Position numbers and translations under genes: made by a program. Of a DNA stretch of 64,000 nt, positions 7,963-35,109 are shown in pieces (the first letter of the stretch is position 1; every line of letters starts with the position of its first letter). Below the pieces are notes generated by a model that saw nothing but the letters and a program-made list of their open reading frames with translations, was not told the origin of the DNA and made no database searches. Location of the stretch: contig NC_065541.1 of the NCBI RefSeq assembly GCF_932294415.1, forward strand, positions 56,336,290 through 56,400,289. Direction: 5' to 3'. The stretch comes from Quercus robur. Taxonomy: Eukaryota; Streptophyta; Magnoliopsida; Fagales; Fagaceae.

Positions 7963-8053
7963 CCTGAGTCTAAAAGACTAAGTTCCATATGCTGGCAGGA
8001 CTGAATTGGAAAAATTATTCACACGGAACTTGAGTCTACCCTAAAGAAACAAC
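7963..8053 (+). repeat. Left outer inverted repeat of the MULE
   Basis: Related, in inverted orientation, to 34541-34646. Landmarks on both sides are a GAGTCT..AGAC core, GTTCCAT(A/G)TGCTGGCAG, then AAAAATTATTCAC, then CCCTAAAG followed by CAAC. Similarity is clear but diverged, with small indels. No target-site duplication is evident outside it. Confidence 0.6.
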
Positions 8054-8137
8054 AAACAAAAACGGGAAATGTAGGAAACTAGCATTAAAAAACTAACTAT
8101 TCAGTTAGTTGGACCCGTTTGCAAACAATTTGTGGTT

Positions 8138-8400
8138 GTAACATCTCGAGCCTTAGAGGGTCGATTTAGGCCTCTAAATCGACCCTCTAAGCCTCGGTTT
8201 ACCTGGGTTAACATGCGAAAATTCCACGTGGAGTACACGAGGAAATCGAGTGTCTGAGACTCGATTTCCGCGTGTACTCCACGTCGAAATCAAGTCTCAG
8301 AGACTCGATTTCTACGTGTTCTCCACGCAAAAATCGAGTCTATGAGACTCGGTTTTCTAAAGGTTAAACCGAGTCTCAGACAGTCGATTTTTACACTTTC
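8138..8400 (+). repeat. Left subterminal palindromic motif cluster
   Basis: Starts GTAACATCTCGAG and then carries repeated palindromes of the type AAATCGAGTCTxxGAGACTCGATTT, spaced about 50-70 bp and separated by CACGTGGAGTACAC-type spacers. The right end of the block (33815-34049) is built in the same way in inverted orientation. Such clusters could be transposase binding sites, promoter elements for the inward-reading gene, or hairpin-forming ends. This is inference. Confidence 0.7.
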
Positions 8401-8439
8401 AGAATCCCCACCTCTTGGTTTGTCTCTTTTGGACGCACA

Positions 8440-8835
8440 TGGAATATCTGACCAGCCAGGCATTGGTCATGTCTGTTGGGCGCAGAGAATATCTGACCAG
8501 CCAGGCATTGGTCATGTCTTTTATGTTTTATTTTGAATGTGCAATGTTTTGTCTAAAAGCTTATAAAGAAAAATCTTTGGGCGTGAAGAATATCTGACCA
8601 GCTATGCATTGGTCATGTCATGCCCATTTTTATGTTTATTTTGAATGTGCAATGTTTGTCTAAAAGCTAAGAAAAAGTCTTTGGGCGTGCAGAATATCTG
8701 ACCAGCTATGCATTGGTCATGTCATGCCCATTTTTATGTTTATTTGGAATGTGCAATGTTTGTCTAAAAGCTAAGAAAAAGTCTTTGGGCGTGCAGAATA
8801 TCTGACCAGCTATGCATTGGTCATGCCCATTTTTA
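8440..8835 (+). repeat. Tandem repeats upstream of the transposase gene
   Basis: Five copies of TATCTGACCAGC followed by a short variable stretch and GCATTGGTCATG occur at about 8445, 8488, 8590, 8694 and 8799. The last three are part of a unit of about 105 bp that also contains TTTGAATGTGCAATGTTTG and GTCTAAAAGCTAAGAAAAAG. They lie between the left subterminal cluster and the leader of the transposase gene, where a promoter would be expected. Confidence 0.8.
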
Positions 8836-9093
8836 TGTCTATTTTGAATGTGCAAAGTTTGAGCAGCACTGTTTTGGCATTGGTCATATCCGTGTTTTGT
8901 TTTTTGGGTGATTGGTCAGAAAAAAAAAAAAAACTCTCACACAACTCTCACACCTTCAGCAACTTCTATCACAGAACCTCTCTCAACAACTCTCACAAAA
9001 CATCATACAAGTCTCATAAACTCTCATACATCAGCAGCAAAACATTGCTCCTCTCACTCTCATACAATCTCAGCAGTATATTTGCTCATCCTC

Positions 9094-12000
9094 ATGTCAA
9101 GTAAGGGTCTCCTCCTCACTCTCTAGTTGGTTGTTTAGTGTATATAGCTGCTTTAAAAAGTGTTGCTTGCATTGAATTTGTCATGCCATTTCTTGATTGT
9201 ATTAAAAAGTGTTGCTTGCTTTAAAAAGTGTTTGTATTAAATATTTATATTTGTTTCCTAATAAGATATTTGTTTATATTAAATATTTATATTTGTTTCC
9301 TGAGAAGATATTTGTTTGTATTAAATATGTATATTTGTTTCATAATATTTTTTTTTTTTTTGAGTAACCGGCGTGGAAGCCCAGGCAGGGCTCCTTATGT
9401 ATATTAGTTGGTTGTTTAAATATGTGTATATATATTTATATTTATACAACTAAATGCAAATATAAATATAAATATATATTTATATAAATATATAGATTTA
9501 TATTTATATTTATATTTATATTTATATTTATATATATATATATATATAAATATTTATATATTTATATATAATTATATATTTATATTTATATTTATATATT
9601 TATATATTTATATATTTATATATTTATATAAATATAAATATATGTGTATATTTATACAACCATATATTTATATTTATATATATATATATATAATTATATA
9701 TATTTATATATTTATATTTATATATTTATACAACTATATATTTATATTTATATATCTATACAATTATATATTTATATTTATATATTTATACAACTATATA
9801 TTTAAATATTTATTTATTTATATAAATATATAAATAATAGACACATAAGGAAAGAAAAAAGAAACAGGTTCAAAGAATTGTGCAACCTCCAACTTTTATG
9901 AAATTCCAACCATGAGAAAGACATTATTGAATACAGTAAAAGGTATGAAAATAATTGGGTCACCGGTCCAGTTGCACCTAATTAAGCAGCTAGCATTTTT
10001 CCATTTTCTGGATGACATAAAGCTGATGACATATTAGCAGATTCGAAACAAATTTACTGTCATGACGGATTTTTTATTGTATGATTTTTATGATTCAGAG
10101 TCAAAATTTGAGTTTGTATATCACATCTAGTATATTTCACTGTATATTAATGCCTTGATTTTCAAATTAGATGATATGTCTAATTTGATTGATCATGATC
10201 ATATTCACATTAGTGTTTTTTTTTTTTTTTTTTTCTTTTGTCTGATGAACCCTGCTCTATGTTATTTCATTAATAGTAGTGTAATAGGGTATGCCATTAA
10301 TTTCCATAGCACTGGAATGATGATATTTTTATTTATATTTTTGTTAGAGCTGAGTTTAAAATTTGTAATGGGGGTGAGTTTTGTTTTTAGTTTTTTTATT
10401 TGTTTGAGTACGAAATTATAATGATTGAGTGTGTTTGTATGTGATGTGGGGTGAGTATATGCAATTGTTACACTTTTAGATCCCTTGTAATTTTTGTACT
10501 TTGAGTAGATAGAAAAGGTTTTTTAATTCGAACATAAATGAAAGAGATAAAATATGTCACTAACATAAATTTCCTTGGCTTGGCTCTCTAATAGGTTCAC
10601 AATCTTTGAAGAATATTGATATAAATGTATACTTCGGTGGACCCCTTCACAATCCTGAAGGGATTGACGGATTCCCATTTAGAGGGGAGGGTATCGAATG
10701 CTACTACATGATGTTACGTCGTAAGTTGAAGACGTTGAATGATTTGAAGAGGAAAATAATGGGCGACTTGAAATTGAATCCTGCTTGGTATGACATCAAG
10801 ATTATTTATCGTTACCCACAAGAAGTCCTTCATGAACGGATAAATTATGGGTATATGGCGATCAAAGAAGATAAACATGTAAAGATGATGTTTAATAGGA
10901 TCCAGAAAATGCCCCAAGTAAATGCTGCTGAGTTGTATGTAAGTTTGGAGGCGCCTGCAGATAACACTACTGAGGTGGTGCAAGAAACAACTACGGCTTT
11001 ACAATTTACAGCCCTAGATGATGGATGCACTACAATGGGAGGGTATACGATGGGAGGGTATACTACACAAGAAACAACGATGGGAGGTTATACGCTCCCA
11101 TCTCAAGATCATGTTGCTAATACTAGTGAAACCCTCTATCGTGAAGAGACACATTTAGAGGAGGAAGACGAAGACGAAGATCATGTTGCGAATGATGGTG
11201 AAAATGTTGAGGTTGTGGATGAGTACGAAGAGAGGATTGAGCAAGGCGACTTTGAGAACGATGTGGATGAACATGAAGTCATTCCCAATTTTGAAGAGGA
11301 AAATATGGAGGACCATGATGAAGGTGATGCAAATGATGATATTGGTGTCCAGTATAATAGAAATACGACCACTGGCTACAGACCTCCTGCTGAGTCATTC
11401 TACTCAAATACTTGGGAAGGTATGGTTGATCCTTCACGTCTTCAGATACCATTTGTCTCTACTTGGGAAGATGGGATGCATTTTTCTAAAGGGTTGACTT
11501 TTGCAAATAAAGATGCGGTGAAGCATGCATTGATAATATACGCAGCAAAGGATAATAGAAATTTTATAATCCGGAGGTCGACCAAATCGAAATTGTGCGC
11601 CGCATGTGTTGATGACAACTGCATGTGGTATGTTGGGGCATACATGAAGACTAAATTCAATGGTATGTGGATGGTTACGTCTTATGTGGGTCCACACACT
11701 TGTATACCCTTTGGCCTAAAAAGAGATGGTAGAATGATGGATTCGCATTTTGTTGCATCAGAAATTGTGGGAAAATTGCAAAAAAATCACACTACACGTA
11801 TTGATGACCTATGGGAGATCATACGTACTAAGTATAATCATGAGCTTTCTTACTATAAAGTATGGGACGCAAAACAAAAGGCAATTGCTAAGATATTTGG
11901 GGATTGGGAGGAGTCTTACCAAAAGTTGCGAAAGTTGTTGTTGGCATACTTGGATGAGGACTCAGGTACCCAGTACAGCTATCACACCATACCTAGGCCA

Positions 12001-13377
12001 CACGAAGGTACTGCGTTACTACGCTATGTATATTGGGCATTCGCTCCATGCATTGCTGCATTCCAATATTGCAGGCCAGTGATTAGTATTGACGGGACTC
12101 ATCTGTATGGTAAATACAAAGGGGTATTGATGATTGCAATGGCAACCGATGCTAACCAAAAGGTTTTGCCTCTCGCCTTCGCTGTTGTGGACAAGGAGTC
12201 AGGGGCTAGTTGGGGGTGGTTTTTAGAGTGTCTCAGGATTTCCATAGAGCATGTCATACCTAACGATGGCATTTGTATTATTTCTGACCGACATAAAGGT
12301 ATTAAATGTGCCATTCGAGAGTGGCCTAGACGTGAGGACGGAAGAGAACAGGTATATCATCGATATTGCCTTCGACATGTTGCTAGCAACTTCAACAGAC
12401 ACTTTGATAACCCGATTCTAAAGGCATTGGCCTTGAAAGCTGGATATGCGAGTAATGAAGCTAAATTTAAGTCCATAATGGAAACCATTAAGGAGGCCGA
12501 GATTAATTTACTGAGGGGTGTAGACCCTACTGATACGCGGATTGAACGTTATATGCCGTACACATATCTAGTGAGTGAGGATGTGGAGAAATGGACCCAG
12601 TCACATGATGGTGGAAGACGTTACGGGGCAATGACAACCAATATCTCCGAGTGCTTTAATGGGGTACTTAAAGGTGCCCACGGTTTGCCCATTGCTGCAA
12701 TGGTTCATTTCACTTGGTGCAAACTTGTTGCATATTTCCACGATCGACATAAACAAATTACTTCTGATCTCTCTCGAGGTAAGCTGTGGAGTGATTATGC
12801 AATGGATATCTATAGCAGAAATGAGCAGAAAATTGCAGGACACACTGTGAGGAATTTTAATCATGCAGAGGGTGTATATCAGGTGGTTACCCCATACAAT
12901 GACCATAGAGGTGGAGGGGGAAACCACAGTCATGAAGTGCGCATATTTGCTAGAACATGTGGTTGCAGAAAGTGGCAAAACTTGAAGATCCCTTGTTCAC
13001 ATGCAATTAAAGTTCTTCAAGATCTGCATCTCAATGCGACCAACTATATTGACCCATGTTACAGTTTGAACAACGCCATTCTCACATATTCACATAATTT
13101 TGTGGTACCAAAGTCAGAGTCTGAGTGGAGGGACGTTTCCGGACCACGATGGGTGCCTGACCCACTGCTGTTGCGGGGCACAAGTCGTCCTGTGAAGTCA
13201 AGAATAAGGAATGAAATGGATGAGGTACGGCGAGAACGGGGAAGCCAGAGGGAAGATCCGGACTTGAGGGAGACTCAACCGAGGCAACGATGCGGAGTGT
13301 GTCATCAAGAGGGGCATAACCATAGAAGTTGTCCCAATTCCCGTGGGGCATCGACAAGTGGTACTGCTATAAACTAG
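9094..13377 (+). CDS. MURA-type MULE transposase, two coding exons
   Basis: Seen: the large open frame in exon 2 (10595-13377) begins without an ATG. A mini-exon at 9094-9100 (ATGTCAA, donor GTAAGG) joins in phase to the acceptor at 10593-10594 (TAATAG), giving a 929-residue protein starting [12 protein letters not shown]. An acidic low-complexity region follows the N-terminal domain (about residues 180-240). The DDE core shows Asp502 in [14 protein letters not shown], Asp567 in IISDRHKGI and Glu688 in [14 protein letters not shown]-type finger [17 protein letters not shown] follows, then a terminal CCHC knuckle [14 protein letters not shown]. Known: this order is standard for MuDR/MULE transposases, which cut and paste via the TIRs. 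Inferred: complete and possibly functional, as no stop or frameshift is seen. The 1.5-kb first intron is AT-rich. The exon-1 assignment rests on phase and splice sites only. Confidence 0.88.
9416..9840. repeat. AT-rich low-complexity tract (TATATTTA)n
   Basis: About 420 bp of TATATTTATA-type simple sequence inside the first intron of the transposase gene, with a tandem TATACAACTATATATTTA variant near its right end. Its reading frames are low complexity and not genes. Confidence 0.9.
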
Positions 13378-14117
13378 GCAAGTGCCCTCACTGTTTTTAT
13401 ATAATATATTCAGAATTTCATTTTGTTATAGTTCTTTGCATTTGGAAACTAATGACCGTATTTTAATTTTTGGCAGGCAAGCGGAAACTCGATTTTGCTA
13501 AGTGACATTGTACGTGGGACTTGTGGTTATCTTCTGTATGGACAAGTGCTAGGTGACTATGTAGAGTATGTTGTATCAGTATGGAGAAGTGCTTGGTGAC
13601 TATGTAAAGTATGTTGTATCAGTATGGTTTAGTATGGACAAGTGGTAGGCAAATATGGGGACTATGTTGTATTTATTAGTTGTTATTTTGGTAATTGTTG
13701 AATGTTGTTGTAATTGAACTATTTGCTGTCTATTGTACTTGTTACTATAGTTGCGTTGTGCAGCTTTTGCCTCTAATGCCAGCAATTATATTACGGCTGG
13801 CATTAGTAGCTACTACTTTAAAGCACATTCAACCACAGGGCCCTCCTTTGAAGCATTTTGTTGCTAGTATTGAATGTATTTTGTCCGTTAATAGGGAACC
13901 TATAATGGGTATGAATAGTAACTGTTTGAATCCAGTTGTTTGCATATGATGTACGAGCCATTTACCAGTATCATATGCTTTGTATCTACTTGTTTATCGC
14001 TGCTCATGTTATGTGTTCTGGATCTAGTTTACTGCTGCAGGGGAAGGGAAACCAATTATGGTTTACTGCTGCACGAGTAGGTGCCAAAAACAAATAAAAC
14101 ACAAAAAAACCCCAGTA
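13378..14117. other. 3' flank of transposase gene
   Basis: This stretch holds no gene. It starts with a GTGCCCTCACTG-type 3' UTR. A tandem duplication of GGTGACTATGTAGAGTATGTTGTATCAG-type sequence lies at about 13533-13630. The remainder is unique, AT-rich sequence up to the hairpin at 14118. Confidence 0.5.
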
Positions 14118-14183
14118 GAAATCGACTCTCAGAGAGTCGATTTCCATAGGAAATCGACTATAAGATAGTCGACTTCCACTGGG
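14118..14183. repeat. Internal nested hairpin with AAATCGACT motifs
   Basis: CCCAGTAGAAATCGACT on the left pairs with AGTCGACTTCCACTGGG on the right. Inside are the smaller palindromes AAATCGACTCTC/GAGAGTCGATTT and AAATCGACTATA/AGTCGACTT. The motif is the same as in the two end clusters of the MULE but lies just beyond the transposase gene. It could be an internal copy or a relic of an older right end. Confidence 0.7.
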
Positions 14184-14745
14184 GGATTTTTTTTTTTTTT
14201 TTTTTAATCCAGTTGGGAACTAATTTCAACAGGCAAGTGAATAGGATTGAAGTGGACTAAAATAGACTGAATGAACCTAATAGACCGAATTGGACTGCAG
14301 TGAACCGAATGAACCTAAATGGACGGAATGGACCTAAGTGGACCGAATTGGACCAAAATAGACCAAAAGGACCAAATAGACTGAATTGGACCGAATTAAC
14401 CAAAGTGGACGTAAGTGAACCAAATTAGACCGAAATGGACCCAAGTTGAAATCGACTATAAGATGGTCGACTTCCACTGGGGGAATTTTTTTTTTTTTAA
14501 ATCCCAAGCATACACAATCAACAGGCAAGTGAATAGGATTGAAGTGGACTAAAATAGACTGAATGAACCTAATAGACCGAATTGGACTGCAGTGAACCGA
14601 ATGAACCTAAATGGACGGAATGGACGTAAGTGGACCGAATTGGACCGAAATTGACCAAAAGGACCAAATAGACTGAATTGGACCGAATTAACCAAAGTGG
14701 ACCTAAGTGAACCAAATTAGACCGAAATGGACCAAATGGGACTTA
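14149..14745. repeat. Two 299-bp units with TGGACCRAAT decamer array
   Basis: Units 14149-14447 and 14448-14745 each start with the AAATCGACTATAAGAT hairpin and CCACTGGGGG. A T run and CAACAGGCAAGTGAATAGG follow. Each then ends in about 200 bp of imperfect 10-mers such as TGGACCGAAT, TGGACCAAAA and AGGACCAAAT. The same decamer family recurs at 38.1 and 38.7-39.0 kb, outside the MULE. Confidence 0.85.
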
Positions 14746-15236
14746 ACATAAAGTCATAACCCTTGTAGGTCTTGCATGAAATACATATGCCAGATCAAAC
14801 GAGCGCTAAAGTTGATGCCAAAGTTGGCACTTGTAAATAAAGTCATAACCCATGTGTTTATAGTTTTGATCTTCATGGCGGTCAACATGAGACCTATTAT
14901 TGCCCAACTATAAAATGCTCACTGCTTGTGACTAAAAATTAAAACTGGTTTTTCAAACACTTAGATAAACCATCTTGCTTGTACAAAACCATCAGTCACG
15001 AATTGCTGAAAATGAAGTCTGGAAATTTTCAAACACTATTTGAAAGAATCTTAACACAAGTTGATCGGAGAAGTTCACAAAATATAAGCCAAACAATCTA
15101 TAGAGGAAGTTCATACATCAAAAGGCACCATGCTATTCTCTCATAACTTGACCAATCAAAGACTTAAAAATAAAACGTATTATGCAGCTCTTATATTAGT
15201 TGCTGGGAAGCATAAGCAGGTCTCCTTCCATTAAGT
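14746..15236. other. No gene recognised
   Basis: AT-rich sequence between the decamer array and the first captured exon. I see no open frame with family resemblance, no clear repeat ends and no RNA gene. Confidence 0.4.
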
Positions 15237-15399
15237 TTACGCAGAATATGGTATCCTCAAGGCCATTCTTTGGGCAAGCCAAGGTCTTTCTGAATCTGGG
15301 TCAATGAAACGAGGCATGAGGAACTGTTCTGCTTCTTCGTCTATCAATTCTCTAGCCCATGCGACCCTCTTTGATGGGCAACTACCTGGCCCATAGCAC
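15237..15399 (-). pseudogene. Captured 3' exon of pectinesterase 31-like gene
   Basis: Acceptor TTAATGCAG is followed by an exon reading CYGPGSCPSKRVAW, then ARELIDEEAEQFLM, then a segment ending MALRIPYSA and stop. Known: this is the C-terminus of PME31-type pectin methylesterases, cell-wall enzymes. Only the last exon was found here, so this is a fragment rather than a gene. The frame of the fragment is open. It lies on the same strand as the neighbouring captured fragments. Confidence 0.8.
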
Positions 15400-15814
15400 C
15401 TGCATTTTTAATTGAAGCATTCCATACTTATTTAGTGTGCTATTAAGAATAAACTTTCATAAACACAGCAGCATCCATTTCAGAAGAAAAGTCAAAGAAA
15501 AGAAAGTACAACCAACTCCACCAAAACAGTAATCCAACATGTTATCAATTCATTTTCATTTTCATCTCTACTCAGCATCAAAAAAAGGTTATCAATAAGC
15601 ATCTACACTTGTTACAAGCTACCAAATCATAATGGTAAAATTGCCGAAAATTTTATTGCAATTTATTAATTATATGGTAAAAAATGCGATGTTCATAATA
15701 AAGGCTTATGGTCATTAAGCACAGGAATTAGCAAGCAAATAATTTGAGAAGCATGGTGATGTGTGCTGGCAGCAGCCACACCAAATTGACTATGCTGGGA
15801 TTGGACGCTTACCA

Positions 15815-16066
15815 AGTTAATTGAGTCATACTTTTCATCAGCATCTGTAAAACAAGAAAGGTATGTTGTAAGCACTTCACACACTAATGTAGAATGACAA
15901 CAATTGAATTTAGCGGAAATTCATACAATCTAGTATCAAGTAATTACATAATTTTTTAAGGTAAAATACAAGAAGCCCAACCTGCACTGTGCTTTCTGCT
16001 GCTTTTGATGCCAGGTACAACCAGGTTGGAGCCACAAGACGCGGATCATATTCTGTCATACTCTTT
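15815..16066 (-). pseudogene. Captured cyclin C exons (fragment)
   Basis: Exon 16066-15948 encodes KSMTEYDPRLVAPTWLYLAS, then KAAESTVQVGLLVFYLKKL. The next exon (15844 to about 15815) starts YADEKYD. Known: these match the first cyclin box of plant cyclin C (CYCC1), the partner of CDK8 in the Mediator kinase module. The usual KAEES is KAAES here and the usual Cys is Trp. The N- and C-terminal parts of the family were not found, so it cannot make a full cyclin. Confidence 0.8.
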
Positions 16067-16129
16067 CTGAAAGCACAAAAAGAAGTTAAGCTTAGCAAGC
16101 AAAAGAGGTGATGGTATTTTTGTTTTTTG

Positions 16130-17344: not shown

Positions 17345-17929
17345 CTGCACAAAATACAAAAACTGCAATTAATAATTGTTTCCCTAAGAAATGGCTGAAA
17401 TTATTGAGTATCAGTGTTCTATTTGTGTTCACACAACAGGCCATGACATCAAAGGCAAGATATAAATTCTATGAAGCAGCTTAAGAAGCTTGCAATTTTT
17501 GAAAGCGCCAAAGTTTTTCAGCAATTAGATTCTTCTGGAAAAAAAATACAAAAAATAATAATAATAAACAAAATAGATTCCAATATGTTTGACTGTAAGT
17601 CTGCTATAAGATGCTTCCAAAAAGAGAATTTACTTACTACATTCAGGATTTCCTAGAGATTAATATTCATGGAGGAAAAAAATAAATAAAAATAGATGCA
17701 CCTATAGAAATAAGATGCATCAGTGCATGTATTTATCAAAACAAGCTCAGGAAAACAAAAATCTAATTGCCTTTAAGTACATTCTCTACAGAATAGAAAA
17801 GACAGAACATCAGTTAAGGAATGAAGTTTCAAATTACAAATCAAATACAGATCATGAAGTACAGTTTCTAAGCAAAACATCTAACGGTCAAGGATTTTCT
17901 ACAATGTGAAACAGATGAGGTATGTTCAC
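17345..17929. other. Spacer between the two TOP2-derived pieces
   Basis: AT-rich sequence between the TOP2 exon and the second copy of the TOP2 tail. It may contain TOP2 intron sequence, but I recognise no exon in it. Confidence 0.4.
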
Positions 17930-18396: not shown

Positions 18397-18679
18397 GCTG
18401 TCAGGCATAAAAACAAGATGTGATATGGTAGGGCTGTTATTGGGGGGTTCAATCACAAAATCAGTGATACAAAAATTGTATATGCAATGAATTCAGATCT
18501 ATTTAACAGATGTTCATATTGATCATGAATTTCAGAGTATCTAGTTGGATCTGAACTCATATCATGCCATATTCACATTGAATTGACAGTCATGTAACAT
18601 ACTTCATTATCACATATCACATAGCTAACTGTCTAATCCTATATAAATGGTTCAACCAAAAGTGGTGGAACATACCTGC

Positions 18680-22220: not shown

Positions 22221-22573
22221 GCAATAATTGGGTTCTCAAAGTTACTCACCAGTGCATCTTTCGGAGGATCATATGGAGGCACGTTTTCAAGTTCTGCTTT
22301 ACAAGCAGCAAGAAAAAGTTAGCTTTAATGATTCTTTGTTACCGAGATTCTTCTTGCAACCTCACGTGTTCCACTTCTTTATATTTCTTTCTAATACCCC
22401 TTAGGAAAAAATATAAAGAAATGGAAGACCTGAGGAAGCAAGAAGAATCTCGGGAACATAGAATAATTAAAGCTAACTTTTTCTTGCTGCTGCAGAAGCA
22501 GAACTTGAAAACATGCCTCCATATGAACCTCCAAAAGATGTACTTGTGAGTAACTTTGAGAACCCCATTATTG
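22221..22573. repeat. 168-bp hairpin made from a duplicated gene fragment
   Basis: Arms 22221-22389 and 22406-22573 are reverse complements with about 19 differences in 168 bp (roughly 89% identity), around a 16-nt loop. Each arm holds two exon-like pieces: one reading EMEDLRKQEESREHRIIKA in the plus-strand arm, then, after an intron-like TTTTTCTTGCTGCTGCAG, one reading AELENMPPYEPPKDVLVSNF. I do not recognise the parent gene. A transcript from either strand would fold into a long double-stranded RNA. Confidence 0.85.
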
Positions 22574-22582
22574 ATTTATGCC

Positions 22583-23312: not shown

Positions 23313-26300
23313 TTACCTTTTTTGAACCTTACGCTTTCTCGTATAATAAGGAGGAGGTCTTGCATGTCCTTCGTCAGATGCGTCGGGCCCAGCGTTGTGT
23401 CCATGTTTGTGCCCCCCTGTCCCACAAGGAGGTGCCTTAGATATGCGTTTTGGTCGACCTTCTGCCGCTGCAGCTAACCCAATAGGCTGCTCAGGCTGCA
23501 CATGTGGTGGGTCAACGGCTGAAGAAGGGCCAGTGGACGTACTGTGGGAAGGTGGGAGGGGTTGCAAGTCAGGAGGAGTTTGATCAAGACCCAGGTCATA
23601 TGATGGAATAGGTGATAGCTCAGGAAATGACCGTGGGGTGGGTGGACGAATGTCAGACCCAGGACAGGCATGTGGGGTGGGTGGAGGGATGGTGGGACTA
23701 GGGGACTCATGTGGGGTGGGTGGAGGGATGGTGGGACCAGGGGACTCATGTGGAGTGGCTAAAGGGATGGTGGGGGTAGGGGATGGATGTGAGGTGGGTG
23801 AAGGGATGGTGGCGCTAACGGATGGATGTGGGGTGGGTGAAGGGATGGTGGGGCTAAGGGATGGATGTGCGGTGGATGGAGAGGGATCGAGGGTAGGGAC
23901 AACCTGAGGGGTAGCAACAGGCGAACGAGAGCAACGTCCGGCAGGAGCTGTGCTCGTGCTTGGGCTCTCAGTAGTGCTTGGCCTCTGAGTAGGCGCTGCC
24001 GCAGGAGTAGCTGCCTCCTCGTTCGGGGCCTCAGGTTCCTGAGGTCGTACATGGCCAATCTCATGCACTGCCTCCAGCACATTAATAATGTCATTGTGGG
24101 CCTCCGTGCCCACTGGGTGACGGCGCATCATACGGACATATCCTTCAATCTGCACATAGAAAAACCAAGTATATTAATAATGCAATATCAAAATGAAGAA
24201 AGCCAATCAATAGTATAATAAAGGTTGGTTCGAAATTGATACGACAACTAATAATTGGAAATTATAGGGACACCAACTGTTACATTGGACTAAATTGAAA
24301 TTAACTTTTCTATTAAAGATATAGTTAACGGATATTGTGTTCTCAAAAATGCAAATTAAAAATTCAAATGAGGAAAAAAATTAAAAATAATAAAAATGGA
24401 AAGACGAATGTATACCATAACTGTAAAGGCTGAAATAGAAGATATGACCTTAGAGCATCCCAAATTACATTTGTATATGAACAAAGTTCTCTATAAGGTA
24501 AATCAACAAGATTGTCTATAAGCAATCTTAAGCAAATGAAATTAAAAGGGAGGTTTGATGCTAAGTAAACATTGGACCACATAAGGTGTGTTCTCTAAAC
24601 AGTGGTAAACTAAGTAACAAGTACAGTAAAATGTAGAACACGTGGAGAAGTTACCAATACAATGAATCTAGCACCGGGGATATCGATAAACCTTCGAGTT
24701 ATCCTTGTGAACCAATCGAAGTACTCGTGGTGTAGAGGCATATCACCAAGCACTGCTTCACAACGATGTTGAAGGCGATGACCCCACTCCGTGAGATGCA
24801 TAGCATGTCTCCGCACCCAATCAACACCCATCTTCCCCCTCAAATCAATGTCATGAAGCACCGAGTCCGTGTTAACATGGCGGGGAATTTCTTGGATCAT
24901 CCCAAATTGCCTCACAACACGATCCGGTGTATGTTTCTCTACTAGATGGAAACATACAAGCGGCACCATTGCCGTCCACACTGCCCTCCCTGCAACGCAC
25001 GACGGCGGAAGGTTCTCGTATTCATCTTCATACGGCTGCCACACCACCTACAACAGCCCAAAAACAAATATGCAACACATTAGGCAACTATCTTTCTATT
25101 TCAAAGTTCAGCAAATATATATCTTCTTCTTGAACATGTTGAACAAAGCATAAACATAATACCTGGTTTGGCAACATTAAAGCTATTTGCTCCCGATACC
25201 TGTCCCTAAAGACCTGGGCGGGCCTATTTTTCTTGTTTGGGACCCACACCCACCTACAATCAAGAACAGGGGATCAATATCTACAACTTCCGAAGTAAGA
25301 TAATATTATGATTAAAACTATAATGTAATCAGATATAACTACTAATAGAATCTTATAGAAATTTACTGAATTAATAATATCACTAGAATAAAAAAAAGTC
25401 CTTAAGCCAAACAAAGCACATATTGACAAAGCAGATAAATATCTATATATCTATGTATCTAAACATTCAGAACCCAACAAAGATTAATTAAAAGCAGACC
25501 ATCCCAAAAAGACCCTCATATTTGCTATATAAGTAATATCAAATATACTGAGGATTTGTCATTACAACTCCACGCATTAGCTTTTGAACTGTTCGGACCA
25601 GTGATAGGCAAGGCTTAGCTGTAAAACTTGATTGCTCTAAAAGCACATTTCCATAACTACTCACACATAAAATAAAACTAGCTAGCAACTTGATTGCTTA
25701 GCAGAATAAAATGATGGTTCCGGAAAAACTTGACTGCAATGTTTAAGCCATTTTACCCATCAACCATCACCATCACCATCACCAGGACCCCAATCCCTCA
25801 CTAGATAATGGTACTAGAAACGGTAGTAGACATAAAATATTACAAAGCCAAGTTGATCCTTTAGTTTACTTACAAATAACAAAAGGGAAAGAATACCAAA
25901 TAACAAATAATTGGAAAGAGTAAAAATTAGATTAAAGATAAAGATTCTACTTTTACATTATACCCAAAATTTTCCTACATTATGACATCTAAACATTAGC
26001 ATTCTAAAACTGAAAGTCATTCACAATCTGGAACCAATGTCAATGACAATATTTATATTAGATACTCATATCACATTTACTCAAATAAATTGAACCCATC
26101 AATCCCTACTATACCCAATCCAACCATTTCACTAGATTAATAGGGAGTTAGGTTTCAGTCACAATAACATTTTAGTTGCTCAAAATCTCAGACAAAAAAC
26201 TCATGCATTAAAATATACAACTCACACAAACATTTCATCAAACAATTTCTTAGCAAATCTAAATCGCACTCAGTTTACCAGACCTCACATATAACTCAAA

Positions 26301-29300
26301 AAATTGAAAACTAAATAACATTGCACTCCCAGCCTTAGTAGAAGTTATAGACCCATATAGATAAATCCAAAAAAAAAAAAAAAAAAAAAACATTAAAATT
26401 TTACCATAATTTCAAACCCAGTTCCATGAATGAATGAAAAAACAACTATCAAAACCAAGACAAGCCAAAGACGTTACTTTTTTGCAATTCCAAAAGCCAT
26501 CCACATAATCTGCACATGATTTCTCAGAAACCCAATCCACAAGACATTGTGTGAAAAGTTCTAGGTTGACAAGTTTCCTTCCATAGTCCTTTAGCCCTTT
26601 GAACACTCTTCTTGAAGTAGGAACAAACTTACTTGACATAAATGATTCGTACAATGATTCGTACAATGATTCGTAATCATATATATTGAAACATGTGTTT
26701 AACATTTTTTAATGTTGACATAAATGATTCGTACAACCCTTTTAAATAAAAATAAAAATTTAAATTTTAAGTTACATGATTGTAAGCTTAGGTAATGATC
26801 ACATATTGTAAATGAAGTTACTAAGGTACAGACTTACTTAAGGGACAGTGGACCACGCACTGGAGGACCATAAGCACCCACTGGTGGGCCACGCTCAACT
26901 GCCGGGCACAAAAAGGGGAATCTGGCCCACGCCCAATACTGGACCAACAATAAACACCCACCAATCTGACTGGCTTTCTTATCACTTGCCCTGCATAACT
27001 GTCGGTACAGCCATGCAAGGCAAGCACTTCCCCAACTATACCTTCGTGGGTTGCGAAGGTCTTCCAACTGCTGCACCCACATTAGATGCACCCTATCACC
27101 GGATTTGTCCATGAAGATTGTGTCCCCCAATAGTGCTAGGATGTAGCATCGTGCGTACCTATGCACTTCATCGTCTTCAGCATTAGGCGGCAGTGGATGG
27201 GCAACTTGCTCCAAAAGCCGTTTGATGAGAATCCTCTGGCCACTACATTCCAGATGGTCTTCATTGGCAGGTCGAAAGCCAAGGTACTCATCGCACACAG
27301 TCTCCCATATTTTTTGTGTGCTCCCTGTTATAGCGTCACCATCAACAAGAAGTCCAAGCAGAACCTCCACATCCTGCAATGTGATGGTGACCTCACCATG
27401 CGGCATGTGGAATGTGTGAGTCTCGGGCCGCCATCGCTCCACTAAGGCCGTTATCAGGCCATGATCAATCTCTCTACCCGGAGTCCTGAGAAGTCCCTCC
27501 AAACCAAGTGCCTTAATGATGTCAATCACTCGATCATCCACCATTGGCTCTCGATTCGAGAACTCTTCACTACGGGCACGACATTTAAGGGACCCTGGAT
27601 CCTGCACAAAACATAACCATGGATTAACGGGGCAAGTTAAGTGCAATAGAAGTTGTTTATAGTATTTATAACACCCACCATGGATTAACGGGGCAATGGA
27701 TTAACATACAACTTATAAACATACAACTTATTTTTAATTTCTAAAAGCTAGTTAATGACTTGATACTAACTAAGAAAATTATACTTTCAAAATATTTAGG
27801 TCATAAAATCTCTTATTGGCATCAATGTTAACATTCGTTTTTTCTAAATAAACATGTAATATTCATAGAAAGAAAAGACTTAGAAACAAATCACAGGGGG
27901 AGGGAATTAATCCCTTCTCTATCTTGTGATTTAAAACGAAAATTTAGTGAGGAAGAGATAGTGTTAAATCTCTCATTTGGCTCCATTTGATGGGCAAAAA
28001 CACTAGCCTTCCTAAAAATATGATTTATAAACCCAAAAAAGAAAAAAAAAAAAAAAGACTTACTTATTAGAAGGATCCCCCTAATTAAAATACAAATATT
28101 TTCATTTTCGACTATCTAGCTCCAACTCACGACATTTCTTTATCTACCAAACTTATCTTTATCTACCAAAATTATTATTGTCTAAAAATAATCTAGTTAT
28201 TAATGACTGGAAGAAATCAAGAAATAACCTTTCACGTGCGAAATTATAGAAGATCCCCTTTAAGATCAAACAATTTATCGAATTGAGTATGATATTTTAC
28301 AGTGATACTATTTCTGCCAGATTGTTAAGGTATTGGAACTCATTGGGAAGAAAGAAAGACTACAACTTCCATCTGGATTTGCTGCTCTTATAGCAGAAAA
28401 GTCAAATCGGAGTTTAAGGAGAGCTATACTGTCATTTCAGACTTGTCGTGTCCAACAGTTAAGCTCCATAATTCTACTCATTGATCAGTAGCATTGTCAT
28501 GCTGTTCTTCTTTACCTTTTTGTCAATCGCACAGCTTCAAAAGATAGCACTCATGGTTCCTGATAACTATGTTCTTTCTGTGTAATGTAATTTTTCATAT
28601 AGGTATCCCTTTACAAGCAAACAAGTAATATCCTCAATGGATTGGGAGGAATATGTTGCTGAACTAGCATCTGACATAATGAAGGAGCAGAGTCCTAAAA
28701 GGTGATTTTCATGCATCTTGCTGTATTGTAATGTTATAACAGTATACTGAATACTTATTAAGATGGTTTTTATGCATTATACTGTATTGTAATGTTATAA
28801 CAGTATTCTGAACATTCAGATTTTATATCTATCATTTCTGCTGTCATTACCATCACCATTAAGTTTCTTTGATACCATCTCTAAATAATAAATGATATTT
28901 TTATTGAGGGAGAAATGCAAGAAAACCCCTGAACTTTAGATCCAAAATTGAACTGAATTTTTGTTCTTCTAAAAGTCAACCAATCCAAAGCTAAACCACA
29001 AATCAGATTCAGTGTAATGCTTGTTTGTAAGTTACTACTCATTTAGCCATTACATATTGAATTTTGCATCCTTCATTATTTTTGTAGTATCTTGATGCAT
29101 GCTTTGTCCAATCCCTACTATTCTATATATATCAACCGGTATTTCTTAACAATTACTATCAGAGGCTAAACTCATGGATTTGATCTGGTTTTAATCCTCA
29201 TCAGTGGCCTTGCCCAGTCCGTCCTATACTCTCCCTGAATGTGGTGGCTCAGTCATTGTTAAAGTGGGCCCACTACAATTGAGTGTTTGGCTTGTTGTAT

Positions 29301-30162
29301 TTGGCGGGCCTGGGCAGTCTATCATTCTTACAGTTCTTTCTCTTGTACCACTGTTCCAAACTAACACATAGTTGATAGTTGACACTTATAGATATTATGT
29401 TTATTTAGCAATTGTTAAAATTAATAATTTTTTAAGGAACCAACTTCATTGCATGCCATCTAATTAATAATTCTAATACTTCATATTTAATAGTTTTTAA
29501 AAAATATTGCTTCAGATAATTATATAAGAATAAAAAGATGCACTTATATTTAAAGTAAACGTATGTTAGGGATTAATAAACTTGATTGGCTCTATTTAGA
29601 AATAGGAGTGTGCACAGGTTGGATTGGTCAGGTCAGGTGGAGGTCAATATTTTTAACCAACCAACCAATGGTGGGTTGGGAAAATTCCAATTCTGCTGCC
29701 GAGTCACCGACCCACCAATCTATAAATTAGGCAGATCGGTTGAAAATCTTCAACTTGGCTGGTTGAGCAGGTTGGGCGGGCTGACAAATGCAATTAGCTA
29801 AATGAAATTATTTCAATTAAATTAGATAATTGTTTTCCTCAAATAAAAATTTAAAAAAAAAAAAAAAAAAGGAAACAAAAAACTGCAATCTTTAGTAAAA
29901 ATAATTACAAATACTATATTATTTTATATTAGAATTTTTTAATAGAATGACTGAAAATTTATCATACTGAAAATAAAAACATCTCAGAATCTTAAATTAG
30001 ATGTGTACATAGAGTGAGAATAATAACAAAATCTTAGAGAGAGTGGCTGGAGTTTATTAGAGAAAAAAAAATGTGAAAATGAAAAAATAAAAAGAAAGAG
30101 AAAGAGATGAGAGAAATAAAGTGGGTGCGTATGTGAAGAAGAGTTTTGCAACATAATAAAGT

Positions 30163-30201
<39 letters not shown>

Positions 30202-32240
30202 ATATAAGCAGGCAGGTCGGGTTGTTGTGGGTTAGAAATATCTCAACATTTAAAAAATAAAATAAAATAATAAGGGACTTGTTCCTTGCTTGTCACTGAC
30301 TTGGGATGAAATGCTCCTATATTTTTTTTGGTCTAACAAATGGCTACCTTTTTAAATGATGAGTTTTGTGGAAAATGAGGTAAGTTCAAGGGATGTTACT
30401 GTAATAATATTTGCAAGGATCATTCATTATTGAGATATGGTAGATTAGAGTTGGTAAGGCTCAAATTTGTACTTCATTATAGTCTTTTTGTGATATCCCT
30501 TATTCCTTTGGAGGGTGACAAAGTGATTGGATGAGGATAAAGGACCAGTGGCGTGTTTGTGTTTATAGTTTATGGAAGCTTTTGACAATTTCCATCTGAT
30601 TCTGCTTTTTGGAGGGCACCATATGCAATTTATAACTGCTCAAATTCTGATTAATTACCATTTTAGATATGCACCCTGCTCTAAACCATTTAATTAATCA
30701 TTTCTCTATATTCTGTAGGCTGTTTCAGGTTCGAGGGAAGTTGTATGAGCTACTTGTCAATTGTATTCCACCAGAGATTATCTTGAAGGTAAAGACAAGC
30801 TTCTTTTAGAGCTTTAAAAAGAAATTCAATACAAAACAAACACCATAAGTTCTATATGTGAGCTACTAACCAGCTACAGCAACCATGTCCAACAATTTAG
30901 AGATATCATAAATTAGACAAAGAGGGCCATAAGCTCTAGCCTAAATGGCAGCTCCTGCAGTTTGCAGTTAAACCAATGAGAGCAACCTTCCCCCTAACCC
31001 TTTCCAGCAACCAATACTGTTATTTATAGATCTTTGCAATCTACAATTAAACCAATGAGAGCAAACACCAAAGCCACAATAGACTATAATTCTAAGCTGC
31101 CAAAAACTGAAAAAGTATATGAGTAACCAACTCCCCTTTAACAGCATCAGCTAACAACCCATGTCTTGATCAAATCATATGTAGTTAAAATCTAGAGCTT
31201 AAGTTCCTTGAAAACTAGCAATTACTCAAGTTCAATCCCTTCATTATCTAATTAATTCCAAACAGAAAACAAATGAAATTGGGAATTGAAAACCAGTTAA
31301 TCTCCCCAAAATCATAACTGATGCTTAGAACAGTGATTGTATTATGGCTTGATCCTAACTATCTTCTATATATTTACTCTTAATCTCCACTTTCAAAGAG
31401 TTGCATTAATTCGTGGAAAAGAACTTGGTACACTTCTAAAGCTACAGAAATTGCTGTTACAGAGGCTAAAGTCTAAGTAATACAACAAAGCCTAATTAGT
31501 TGAAGGATTTCGTAGAGCACTAAGCTTGGGTTCAACTCATTCAGTTTTTCAATCCAACAACAATCAATTAAAATACACATCTCATTGATCCATGCTTCTC
31601 TATGTATATATAAAATACACTCTTAACTGCAAAAGCAGTAGAAATTCAAGACACTCTTAACCTGCAAAAGCAAGTCATAACAACAACCTGAAATTTTCCA
31701 TCAACCCCATATATCTGGATTTATTTATTTATTTATTTATTTTAACTTCACAACCAGTAAAGAAATAGCAGCAGCAACAACAACTGAAATATTCTTCAAA
31801 CCCATATACTATTCAACAAGAAAAAACTAATCCCGTCCAATCCAAATGGTTTTGATCAACCTCATCTGTCTGAAATTGTTTTAAAAACTTCACAACCAGT
31901 AAGAAACAACAGCAACTACAAATCCCTAAGTTCTAATATTTGTGTTTTAGAGATAAAACAGTTTCTGATTTGGGTTTTAACTCTATTAGTTATGGTTAAT
32001 TTTGTAATTAGGAGGAAGATTTGTATTTTCAGCAATCCCTGTGAATTAAGGGTATTTGGTAATTAAGTTCACCACACACAAAATTCACCACACAAAAAAA
32101 AAAATGAAATCTTTAGTGGTGTGTTTTACCTGCCCATTCCAAATGGCTTCTGATCGATGGTTGGGCTGCAACGTCAACACTGACGTGTCAATGGGGCCAG
32201 GCTGCGCATGGTTAATCTGTCCAGCATTTGCAGCAGCCAT
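23313..32240 (-). CDS. Plant mobile domain (PMD) protein, five coding exons
   Basis: Seen: coding exons (minus) 32240-32130, 27601-26838, 25253-25163, 25047-24655 and 24149-23313, all GT-AG and in phase, give 731 residues and no internal stop. Exon 1 reads MAAANAGQINHAQPGP then SVLTLQPNHRSEAIWNGQ. The PMD core (about residues 60-430) includes WRPETHTFHMPHGEVTITLQ, DVEVLLGLLVDG and WEPY-like VVWQPYEDEYENLPP. The last exon is a Pro/Ser/Thr-rich tail with 12-residue repeats, ending in basic KRKVQKR. Known: PMD (aminotransferase-like) proteins include Arabidopsis MAIN and MAIL1, nuclear silencing factors that work with the phosphatase PP7L; many PMD genes are in transposons. Inferred: the second gene of the large MULE. 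ATG lies one base after an acceptor (TTTTGTGCAG), so a non-coding leader exon is expected. Intron 1 is 4.5 kb and contains an antisense RFC3 fragment. Confidence 0.88.
23630..23880 (-). repeat. Coding minisatellite in PMD tail
   Basis: A unit of about 36-39 bp is repeated about seven times and encodes variants of TIPPPTPHESPG and TIPSPTPHPSVS. It makes the Pro-rich C-terminal tail of the PMD protein. The neighbouring units TIPPPTPHESPG and TIPPPTPHESPS are nearly the same, which points to recent slippage. Confidence 0.85.
29600..30250. repeat. Dispersed repeat with GGTTGGG ends
   Basis: The left part has AGGTTGGATTGGTCAGGTC and CAACCAACCAATGGTGGG; the right part has CAGGCAGGTCGGGTTGTTGTGGG. 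The middle is AT-rich. Similar GGGTTGGG text occurs at 118-220. This is probably a decayed non-autonomous transposon in the RFC3-derived intron; its ends are uncertain. Confidence 0.35.
30162..30207. repeat. (TA)n(TG)n microsatellite
   Basis: About nine TA units run directly into about ten to twelve TG units. It lies in the large intron that contains the RFC3 fragment. Confidence 0.95.
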
Positions 32241-33312
32241 ACTGCACAAAAATGTCAAACCATTCACATTTCTCATTTCAGCAATACTTCCAAGTACCCA
32301 AGGACTACAAATATGGCATTTACATTACCCACACGGATCATTTCAAAGTTATTAAATTCAAAAGACGCTCATCAACAGGCATAGAATCTAAAACCACAAA
32401 ATGAAAGCAAACTAAACTAAAAATGCGACACAATTGACCTACAAATACCACAATCTACCCAACTAGAGAGAATGTATCCATTCAGCTCAATCATTTCAAA
32501 ATCGTCAAAACCCATTAAAAACTCCTTGATTAGAATTATTTTATCACAATTCTCAATTGAGCCTTTCAATGTCATTAAATTCTCAAATAATTCAGTCATT
32601 AGATTCTCAAATAATTCATCGACAGGCACAGAAACCAAAAAACCAGAAATGAAACTAAATCCAATTCTTTGTTGCTGCTTTAGCAAACTAAACTAAAAGC
32701 TATGTTATCAAAACCAAATTATAGAATGTATCCATTTAGCTCAATTATGCATCTCAATATCATCGAAAGCCCCATTCAAAACTACTTGATAATAATCATT
32801 TTATAACACACTAAGATTTCATTTTGACCCTATCTATATTTCTTATTTCAGGAATACTTCCCAATATACCCACATTGATATTTCATCATGTTGCAGTTCA
32901 ATTTCTAAGCCAAATGCATCTCTCTCTCTCTCTCACACACGCACACACACGAACACACCAGCATCTTATATATTGGTCTGTCAAAGACAAATTTGGATTT
33001 TTAAGTGCTTTGCTTATTAATTTGTCTTATTTCATTTCTAAGTGTTTATCTGCACAGCAGTACATTCTACATTTCTTATGGTCTTTCTAAAACCTACATT
33101 TCTTATGGTCTTTCTAAAACCTACATTTCTCAAACAAAAAAAAAATAAAAAATACTGATGTTATCTATAATGGGACTTCGAAATTTGTCTTCATTCGAAC
33201 ATAAAATTCGAATCTAAAAAACTAAGTGAGAAATGGCATACTTGAAAAATGGGAAGGAATTGAAGCAACAATCTGGGAATGAAGAAGACACCAACATGGA
33301 ATGCTCCTTATA

Positions 33313-33359
<47 letters not shown>

Positions 33360-33423
33360 AAACAAACAAACAAACAAACAAACAAAACGAACTGATTACA
33401 TTGCAAAATACATAAAGACTCAC
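32241..33423 (-). other. Probable leader intron of PMD gene, with internal duplications
   Basis: Bounded on the minus strand by a GTGAGT donor (33423 downward) and the acceptor TTTTGTGCAG next to the PMD start codon. Inside, GAATGTATCCATT(C/T)AGCTCAAT occurs twice (about 32470 and 32716), as does a TTTCTCATTTCAG/TTTCTTATTTCAG(C/G)AATACTTCC block (about 32265 and 32840). The duplications look like part of the intron, not coding sequence. Confidence 0.45.
33316..33385. repeat. Poly-A run followed by (AAAC)n
   Basis: About 43 A residues and then about seven AAAC units. Such a structure often marks the tail of a retroposed sequence, but no body could be recognised upstream of it. Confidence 0.9.
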
Positions 33424-33800
33424 CTTTTTTTCTTCTATTTCTTTCAGCTACCGCGTAGGTGAGCGAGAGAGTGAGAGGGTGACTGAGACTGGGTCGGTGA
33501 GGCTGAGAGGGTGAGTGGGTGAGTGGGTTGGGGCCGGCGTCGGCGACGGTGACGCTGAGAGAGTGAGAGAAGGAGAGGGTAAGTGAGAGTGTCGCGTTTG
33601 GCTGATGAGGGAGAGTGAGTGGGTGGGTGACTGAAGGGCCGTCGTCGGCGACGGTGACGCTGAGAGAGTGAGAGAAGGAGAGGGTGAGTGAGAGGGTGCT
33701 GAGACAGAGAGGCGTATGAGGGAGAGTGAGAGTGTGCTGAGACAGAGAGGCGTATGAGGGAGAGTGAGTGGGTGGGTGACTGAAGAAAGAGAGAGCGTTA
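33424..33800 (-). promoter_or_regulatory. Probable PMD leader exon and promoter region
   Basis: On the minus strand this is a CT-rich stretch (ACTCACTCTCCCTCAT-type) ending at a strong donor AAAG/GTGAGT at 33424/33423. It contains a duplicated block of about 100 bp with GTCGGCGACGGTGACGCTGA on the plus strand (about 33540 and 33643). It lies just inside the right subterminal cluster of the MULE, mirroring the CTCTCACAC-rich leader of the transposase gene at about 8935-9093. Leader status is inferred from the splice sites. Confidence 0.5.
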
Positions 33801-33814
33801 AATTCAAAAATATC

Positions 33815-34049
33815 CTATTAGAAATCGACTATAAGAGACTCGGTTTCCAGGTGGCTTCCACGTGGGTCCACGTCAGTCCACGTCAACGGCACGTGACACC
33901 ACCATGGAAATCGAGTCTCTGATAGTCGATTTTCAGATGGCTGCCACATGGCAATAACGCCACATCAGATGTCACGGATTATCAAAACCGACTCTTTGAG
34001 AGTCGATTTACACATCCCAAAATCGACTGTCATAAAGTCGAGATGTTAC
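33815..34049 (-). repeat. Right subterminal palindromic motif cluster
   Basis: Read inward from 34049 it starts GTAACATCTCGAC and carries AAATCGACTCTCAAAGAGTC, AAATCGACTATCAGAGACTC and similar palindromes, with CACGTGGAAGCCACCTGG-type spacers. It is the inverted counterpart of 8138-8400. The nine bases outside (TGACCCAAT) do not match those outside the left cluster (TTTGTGGTT). Confidence 0.7.
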
Positions 34050-34100
34050 TGACCCAATTACTTTCATAACCGGACCTATTAACTAGATTGTTGGGAAATT

Positions 34101-34320
34101 ATGGCTATTTTCCCATTTCGTTCAACAAAAACCACAAAGAACAAACCTAAACATAAACCACGAAGAACAAACAACAAACCCACAAAGATTAAACCCAAAC
34201 AACGAAGAGGAAACAACAACGCCACGAAGGAAAAACCCAAACAGAAACCACGTAGAAGAAATAGCAAACTAGAGAAATCAAACCCAAACAGAAACCACGA
34301 ATAAGGCAAACCCCACGAAC
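34101..34320. repeat. AAACCCAAACAGAAACCACG minisatellite
   Basis: Imperfect repeats of about 20-45 bp built from ACCACGAAGAACAAAC and AAACCCAAACAGAAACCACG. They sit between the right subterminal cluster and the right outer inverted repeat; the left end of the block has no such insert. Confidence 0.75.
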
Positions 34321-34540
34321 CCAGAGCTCCCTAACCCAAACCCCTCGGCTCAAATTGAACCTAAGTGGCGATGACGAAGACTCCAAGAGGCAACGACGAC
34401 TGAATCCAAGCAACGGAGGGCTCCAAGCAGCAGTGGCAAATGCTCCAGCGAAGGTTTTCCTCTAATTCCTTCATTTTTTCTTATCCGGATCTTTGGGTTT
34501 GTTGATGTTTTGCTGCTTCTCTCTAGGTTTGTTGATGAAT

Positions 34541-34646
34541 GTTGTGCTTTAGGGAACTTAAGTTTTAATACTTAAGTTCTACGTGAATAATTTTTAACCT
34601 CAACTCTGCCAGCACATGGAACTCACGAGTTTCTGAGACTTGAGTG
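34541..34646 (-). repeat. Right outer inverted repeat of the MULE
   Basis: Inverted counterpart of 7963-8053. Just outside it, at about 34655-34690, another motif copy reads ACTCGAGTCTAAGAGATTCG and then AGATGTTAG, nearly the same terminus as at 34049. The true right end could therefore be near 34690. Confidence 0.6.
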
Positions 34647-35109
34647 GCTACAATGAACTCGAGTCTAAGAGATTCGAGATGTTAGTTTCCTAAAAAATGT
34701 TGATAACCAATAAAATTGTTTGAAAATTGGTGTTATATGACAAATTTGGCCTAGTAATATAGAGGTTTGGAATTTTTTAGTTGGGTTTAGAAATGGCTTC
34801 TGTTTAAATATTTTAATCCGTTGAGATTTGGAAATTATTAGATTTTACATGTCTGTGGGAGGCTTCTCCGTAGAACAAGCACAAGAGATAATTGTTGAAT
34901 ATTAATCCAACCTATTCATATAATTGTGTTAGCTATGATCAACACTAATGGCTGTCTTGAAATGGAAAGGATCTCTTCATCTATTTTGAAATTAAAAAAA
35001 AAAGGGTCAATTTTTATGATGAAAATCTACTTTTTCATAAATAGTGTATAATACTCGCTTTTAAAATCTCATTCTAAAAATTAAAAAAAAAAAAAAAAAA
35101 AAATTTAAA

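Follow-up and report, generated by a model that had tools for sequence, protein, structure and literature searches.

Two genes are found in one Mutator-like element (MULE) in MuDR of maize, an element of about 5 kb in which mudrA and mudrB read toward each other. For the window investigated here, a stretch of 64,000 nucleotides from Quercus robur (G000:C37:56336290-56400289 in the 786-Mb assembly), a similar plan was proposed by the initial annotation. It described a giant MULE, in which a MURA-type transposase gene and a gene for a plant mobile domain (PMD) protein face each other. As in MuDR, two genes are present in one MULE. In contrast, the second gene encodes a PMD protein and not mudrB, and the element is about five times larger.

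MULEs with antisense PMD are already known and the anti-silencing role of PMD is a published guess; statements on the literature refer here to the available parts of the cited texts. According to Dupeyron et al. (2019; PMC6446971), most MUDR members have PMD in antisense, MUDRAVI2 elements often do, and one half of the VANDAL elements have PMD and/or DUF. Thus, both domains were already seen in one group. A minisatellite after the transposase open reading frame was reported for an aphid-containing group (Dupeyron et al. 2019). The present family shares with MUDR/MUDRAVI2 the SWIM transposase, target-site duplications (TSDs) of 9-10 bp, terminal repeats and antisense PMD, a likeness of features. 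It differs in its size of 22-44 kb, its captured host pieces and its central palindrome array, for which no mention was found in the available part of PMC6446971. PMD-C was captured twice by MULEs as transposase fusions, in grasses and Amborella, and anti-silencing was suggested (Ikeda et al. 2017; PMC5418596). Here PMD is also located inside a MULE, but as a separate, facing gene of five exons. The anti-silencing idea was repeated in a review of 2021 (PMC8616336). A word search gave no mention of MULE, Mutator, capture or anti-silencing in the available text of Nicolau et al. (2020; PMC7156037), and none of PMD or plant mobile domain in that of a gene-capture review of 2026 (PMC13317346). PMD genes of tea yield phased small RNAs (PMC10673657). 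The features that appear to be new are the giant size together with the captures, the mosaic structure of the two halves, the array in the centre and the likeness of PMD to the family DUF1985.

Other copies in the same genome strongly support that the block is one element, in which transposase and PMD occupy opposite ends. The MURA search scored 49 loci and the search with the PMD core 93 loci, both covering the best candidates only. A facing PMD within 50 kb was found for 42 of the 49 MURA loci. The nearest PMD exon was located downstream on the opposite strand at a distance of 2.9-25.7 kb, and one of the 42 loci has an additional same-direction PMD nearby. In 2000 random placements, 0.15 facing pairs were obtained on average and 3 at most. 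In the genome search with the right end the best 40 of 159 candidates were scored; 31 were paired with a left end and nine unpaired ones were left out. Among the matches listed, 17 of these 31 end-paired copies (2.3-44 kb) contain both genes, three MURA only, three PMD only and eight neither; all 17 copies with both genes are 22-44 kb long. They look like an autonomous-type family and its deletion derivatives with common ends. TSDs were detected as exact 9-mers at a fixed register in 20 copies, as exact 10-mers in eight copies (one of them a T run) and with one mismatch in nine positions in three copies. In the control no exact 9-mer at the fixed register occurred in 930 mispaired flank combinations. 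An alternative scoring rule gave exact repeats of 8-11 bp for 29 of the 31 copies. Gene pairing and duplications are above chance. The convergent, MuDR-like plan within common ends could be verified in this way, as transposase and PMD do occupy the same ends in other copies, with duplications of 9-10 bp outside.

The borders of the element in the window were determined by alignment with these copies:
8064-34123, plus strand: complete giant MULE of 26,060 bp; termini common to 30 other end-paired copies, 9-bp TSD
8055-8063, no strand: left TSD copy AACAAAAAC
34124-34132, no strand: right TSD copy AACAAAAAC
8064-8400, plus strand: left terminal inverted repeat; palindrome units at 8243, 8287, 8331 and 8366, degenerate units at about 8145-8200 (by eye)
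33800-34123, minus strand: right terminal inverted repeat; palindrome units at 33822, 33908, 33985 and 34020
7963-8054, no strand: left part of an older small MULE-like repeat hosting the insertion
34133-34690, no strand: right part of the same older host repeat, with its own TCGAGATGTTA end

Homology to the copies C6 and C2 spans from about 8061-8064 to 34123-34130, and the flanks differ beyond. Copy C6:15455661-15481773 aligned end to end with 98-99% and has a 9-bp duplication. The direct repeats are individual for each copy, CCCTTTAAC for C6, ACCAAAGTT for C2 (10 bp with the preceding C) and AACAAAAAC for the window. The positions 7963 and 34690, given initially as the ends, were wrong. Both belong to the older small repeat and are ruled out as element borders. 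A relative of this repeat at C3:20.7 Mb continues across the junction without interruption, with 499 identical bases among 728 aligned; it is a paralogous, not an orthologous site. Because the ends of this host repeat had been used, the perfect 9-bp TSD at 8055-8063 and 34124-34132 was overlooked and its absence reported. With exactly 9 bp it lies within the 8-11 bp of MULEs. The flank is A/C-rich; hence, the TSD of the window is weak by itself and its position is fixed by the other copies. The terminal inverted repeats showed an inverted match of 69.6% over 138 bp (E 7e-8, local search), so that the ends are diverged, as described before, but significantly alike.

The block was also considered as the product of two unrelated insertions, with a transposase MULE covering 8.1-14.2 kb and, on its right side, a PMD gene or PMD MULE that arrived separately. 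The palindromes at 14119-14473 resemble a right end, and terminal repeats only about 70% alike would fit this explanation. However, no terminal sequence was seen at 14.2 kb, the exact terminal string being present only at 8139, 34038 and 34674. The central palindromes sit inside other whole copies, and 31 copies join left and right ends with duplications. Two separate insertions are ruled out by these end-paired copies, 17 of 31 with both genes, and we regard the explanation as practically untenable. In agreement with a single unit, the uninterrupted paralogous repeat of the insertion site is without the whole block and not without a part of it. Thus, it is very probable that the window contains one autonomous-type giant MULE, which carries a transposase and, as putative helper, a facing PMD gene.

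The coding exons of both genes are as follows:
9094-9100, plus strand: probable first coding exon of the transposase, ATGTCAA; donor and acceptor strings present in other copies
10595-13377, plus strand: main exon of the MURA-type transposase (MULE, SWIM, zinc knuckle)
32130-32240, minus strand: PMD exon 1 with ATG
26838-27601, minus strand: PMD exon 2, first half of PF10536, weak DUF1985 likeness
25163-25253, minus strand: PMD exon 3
24655-25047, minus strand: PMD exon 4
23313-24149, minus strand: PMD exon 5, proline-rich tail with 39-bp (13-aa) repeats

The transposase reading frame 10606-13377 on the plus strand matched PF10551 (MULE, 1e-15) and PF04434 (SWIM, 2e-6), both above cut-off; PF03108 remained slightly under its own cut-off. 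A CX2CX4HX4C zinc knuckle is readable in the translation. This agrees with the MURA type, SWIM finger and zinc knuckle named initially. Residues which we take to be the DDE triad are readable as well. As position 10606 is TTG, the gene very probably starts with the tiny exon at 9094 (ATGTCAA followed by GT), spliced to 10595. Of six other copies checked, all contain the donor string of this putative exon and five the acceptor string. A strongly AT-rich microsatellite occupies 9411-9840 in the probable intron before the main exon, with many, shifted matches to other copies. The leaders of both genes are C+T-rich (0.61 and 0.71 vs 0.49 for the window), and palindrome clusters sit just inside both ends; these two points of the initial annotation were confirmed.

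The PMD gene reads from 32240 to 23313 on the minus strand and consists of five exons with GT-AG introns throughout; the first intron measures 4.5 kb. The spliced product has exactly 731 codons and matched PF10536 with 2.2e-82 over profile positions 11-346 of 347, and no other family was above its own cut-off. Of the fully open gene of 731 codons described before, the codon number, the minus strand and the orientation toward the transposase remain valid. In contrast, it is composed of five spliced exons and is not one open frame. Ten further PMD matches are clustered at C37:13.17-13.42 Mb (L001-L005, L007), eight of which cover the full profile in one open frame of 645-952 codons. This cluster may be a local host gene family.

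Both genes were examined for frame and selection. No frameshifting indel was found in the MURA exon of seven copies including the window. The same holds for the PMD exons found in six copies including the window, apart from a single repeat unit of 39 bp. In three of these six, exon 1 was not recovered and probably lies beyond the examined stretch. PMD showed no early stop in six copies. The ratio of nonsynonymous to synonymous substitution rates (dN/dS) was calculated for the window against three divergent relatives, chosen since the young group gave no clear signal; stops were skipped in the counts. For PMD exon 2 the ratios were 0.40, 0.22 and 0.20 (p 2e-5 to 2e-14) and for exon 4 0.51, 0.39 and 0.37 (each p ≤ 0.028), compared with 0.48, 0.57 and 0.57 for MURA. 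The constraint on the PMD core is at least that on the transposase. Because of the co-occurrence with the transposase (42/49 facing) and the core dN/dS of 0.20-0.51, PMD is supported as the element's own selected accessory gene, as suggested initially. MULEs capture host pieces, and the RFC3 and topoisomerase II pieces of this element look like passengers. For PMD, the corresponding explanation of a host-captured passenger kept by hitch-hiking is very improbable: its core is under purifying selection across lineages with the frame kept, and it faces the transposase at 42 of the 49 scored MURA loci.

Several observations weigh against a selected two-gene element. Among the matches listed, seven of the 49 MURA loci are without PMD within 50 kb and 51 of the 93 PMD loci without MURA. 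MURA of copy C6 has a stop at codon 522, whereas the other six copies have none. In the young group no purifying signal was detected for MURA; window and C6 differ by nine nonsynonymous changes and one synonymous change. The PMD tail is not significantly constrained (dN/dS 0.76, p 0.14, one relative). Stops were present in the compared stretches of the divergent relatives, two in one MURA, one in one exon 4 and one in one tail. Moreover, the three dN/dS comparisons are non-independent, with the window branch common to all and two relatives mutually close.

A described parallel for a possible function of PMD is the anti-silencing protein VANC of VANDAL/Hiun elements. The targets of VANC are tandem non-coding motifs, which vary and diverge together (Hosaka et al. 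2017; PMC5735166). VANC proteins contain variable regions with peptide repeats and a DUF1985 domain (PMC5735166). The present family likewise combines a second MULE protein with a variable, repeat-bearing region and co-diverging tandem DNA motifs, and PMD exon 2 is weakly like DUF1985, below cut-off. It differs by a motif which is a 25-bp palindrome and by clear terminal repeats.

DUF1985 was the next Pfam family after PMD for the full protein of 731 aa (E 0.14). With the exon-2 proteins of the window and three relatives it was obtained in four of four cases at the same place, with E 0.019-0.044 and at second or third rank; DUF7745 ranked between PMD and DUF1985 in two of them (0.016-0.023). 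DUF287 was not seen in the profile scan of PMD. A DUF1985 search of the genome, in which 65 candidates were scored, resulted in two matches, neither above cut-off: L121 (C4:20.45 Mb) and L120 (C37:23.26 Mb). L121, an open frame of 171 codons, matched PMD with 1.8e-8 (34.4 bits, cut-off 34.9) and DUF1985 with 8e-7 (29.5 bits, cut-off 35.1) over the same residues; as it was picked by its DUF1985 score, only its PMD score is unbiased. Interpolation places DUF1985 position 139 at about PMD position 158 for L121 and at 160 for the window exon. Thus, the PMD and DUF1985 alignments agree in register. A profile comparison of the four PMD exons with L121 gave a probability of 74%. These profile matches suggest that PMD and DUF1985 are distant relatives. 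It speaks against this that every DUF1985 match stays below the Pfam cut-off and that the full-length PMD protein reaches only the E value given above. No paper combining DUF1985 and plant mobile domain was found in the literature search.

To explain the combination of both genes, transcription of each would run inward from the terminal repeat on its side. MURA would recognize the palindrome-rich ends and mobilize the element, and PMD would be a trans-acting helper, kept because carrier elements spread better. A helper role of PMD in general is likely. Its help would most likely consist in a sequence-specific relief of host silencing. Anti-silencing is favoured because of the likeness to the VANC domain in all four exon-2 proteins and the bridging frame L121. 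This likeness brought our estimate from somewhat below to about evenly balanced. The main alternative is a helper of integration or expression similar to mudrB, and not an anti-silencer. The layout is as in MuDR, and mudrB is apparently required for integration (PMC6446971). On the other hand, host PMD proteins act in the silencing of transposable elements (PMC5418596) and the PMD exon weakly resembles the VANC domain; we consider this alternative rather unlikely.

Host PMD proteins silence transposons, and PMD genes are carried by many plant MULEs. The present family is suitable for testing a link between both, as young copies are numerous, several have both genes open, and PMD is under selection. 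In addition, there are natural copies for which only one of the two genes is listed, and the motif repeated at three fixed places is a concrete candidate target.

This motif, the 25-bp palindrome AAATCGAST-N7-ASTCGATTT, is clustered in both ends and in a third place between the genes. The palindromes in the ends may bind the transposase, which is the plainest guess. Genome-wide, 2128 exact palindrome sites were found compared with none for the reversed control and 0.05 expected at equal base frequencies. Six contexts on C1 (L113-L118), picked for at least two near sites, were all inverted-repeat stretches with units in the arms. By eye, one of them ends like the right end of the giant element and one has a 9-bp repeat at its ends. 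The palindrome is common to small relatives of the giant element. In this genome it seems to be a hallmark of numerous small MULE-like elements with inverted repeats. Symmetric GACT/AGTC sites numbered 33 vs 2 under independence, and mixed arms 64 vs 126. By position, 31 of these 33 sites belong to the giant family, the exceptions being C39:1010888 and C39:1349485. Among 31 distinct centres from 50 listed sites, positions 2 and 6 pair in 28 (shuffled mean 20.2). Pairing of positions 1 and 7 in 13 vs 8.8 shuffled (p 0.02) is weak, and positions 3 and 5 showed none above shuffles (10/31 vs 9.1). The centre counts derive from related copies, so that the events are not independent.

The third cluster comprises two features:
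14119-14473, no strand: central palindrome array between the genes, hairpin-forming, units at 14119, 14151 and 14449
14226-14736, no strand: 219-bp direct duplication adjoining the central array, 14226-14444 and 14518-14736, 98% alike, with unit 14449 between the copies

The central array was detected in 20 of 20 sampled copies (12 of clade 1, eight of clade 2), 0.6-1.3 kb past the MURA stop; 0.7-0.8 kb were inspected per copy, and units may be missed. As control, random element-internal pieces of 750 bp gave a match in 80 of 2000 cases, two of the eight source pieces holding arrays. Without these pieces the number was 64 of 2000, caused by one weak unrelated match present in two pieces. Arrays of clade 1 have 1-4 units in the sample, six in tandem in copy C5, with 32-bp steps and left arms of GACT type. 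Those of clade 2 have 6-11 units with 35-bp steps and GAGT arms, arranged in triplets with the outer units near reverse complements. The blocks are framed by CCCAGT/ACTGGG and fold into long hairpins (z -7.6 for the window, -17.5 for a clade-2 copy). The array is thus a non-coding motif set, varying in number and diverging in concert, as are the targets of VANC. Extra terminal-type sequence inside the element is also known for MULEs with multiple long terminal inverted repeats (Ferguson and Jiang 2012; PMC3310237). There, the extra repeats are mostly in tandem at the ends, whereas here a palindrome array without a terminus is located between the genes. The word palindrome is absent from the available text of PMC3310237, and no account of such a central array was found in the available literature, which is weak evidence of absence.

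The array could also be a transcription terminator or insulator, preventing antisense RNA from the facing genes, without a role in PMD binding. Its position just past the MURA stop, between facing genes, and its very stable RNA fold would suit this function. On the other side, small relatives carry these units in their arms, too, and one more distant relative examined, at C38:10.0 Mb, has no palindrome units between its genes. A terminator or insulator seems less likely than not. A more far-reaching possibility is that PMD and VANC of Arabidopsis VANDAL elements form one old MULE-encoded family of sequence-specific anti-silencing proteins. The 25-bp palindromes would be its targets, the central array a loading platform tracked by the fast-changing, repeat-bearing tail, and host MAIN/MAIL proteins tamed members. 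This possibility gained from the DUF1985 likeness, before which we held it for quite unlikely, and is still to be regarded as speculative. The idea of an arms race would become testable if PMD were to bind the array and open chromatin. If PMD and DUF1985 are one fold, MAIN/MAIL and VANC would have a common frame.

An inverted repeat at 22222-22573 with arms of 173 nt, 88% complementary and spaced by 6 nt, is present in other aligned giant copies, too.

Three pieces in the element were matched to places elsewhere in the genome:
16653-17462, minus strand: captured DNA topoisomerase II fragment; candidate sources at C4:78.84-78.85 Mb, 94%
17456-17696, no strand: fragment 96% identical to C1:49183242-49183483
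28171-30815, plus strand: captured genomic RFC3 piece (exons and introns) in PMD intron 1, antisense to PMD

The element shares with Pack-MULEs the host gene fragments (topoisomerase II, RFC3) with candidate source loci elsewhere. It differs by its own transposase and by pieces lying between the genes and in the PMD intron. The source loci of both fragments are candidates, matched as DNA stretches. Counting the window, 14 of the 31 end-paired copies contain the topoisomerase II piece (PDB match 1e-19), one of them only partly; it is an older capture. The RFC3 piece has 97.4-98.2% identity to the candidate donor C35:29690672-29693651, and the match stops sharply inside the 4.3 kb fetched; its exons match RFC3 chains at 9e-32. 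Among 40 places scored, the complete piece was found only in the window and C6. Hence, this capture looks recent. A repeat at about 29602-30247 inside the piece occurs at more than 30 other genomic places (69-84%), so that the capture took an older repeat along.

The relative at C38:10.0 Mb has facing genes as well; about 1.4 kb separate its MURA stop from the last PMD exon found, and the first intron of its PMD gene measures about 100 bp. In the 2.5 kb examined on its PMD side, a terminal repeat was not detected. This compact relative suggests that the giant forms derive from a compact two-gene ancestor. They would have grown to 22-44 kb by insertions and by uptake of host gene pieces, both between the genes and within them. 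The two halves of the element differ in their relationships. Compared with the window, C2 is 98% identical at the left and 86% at the right end, and C39:18.86 Mb 89% and 99%, respectively. For window and C2, dS is 0.0016 in MURA and 0.025 in PMD. As the end identities rank the copies differently and dS is unequal, the halves have separate histories, and left and right halves have been recombined by exchange between copies.

Outside the element, a minus-strand frame at 4758-5267 of the window resembles what we take to be an exon of a plastid-type Ycf45/SPD1 ATPase. Two frames of 181 and 189 codons, which overlap in opposite directions at 53566-54178, are possibly retrotransposon gag.

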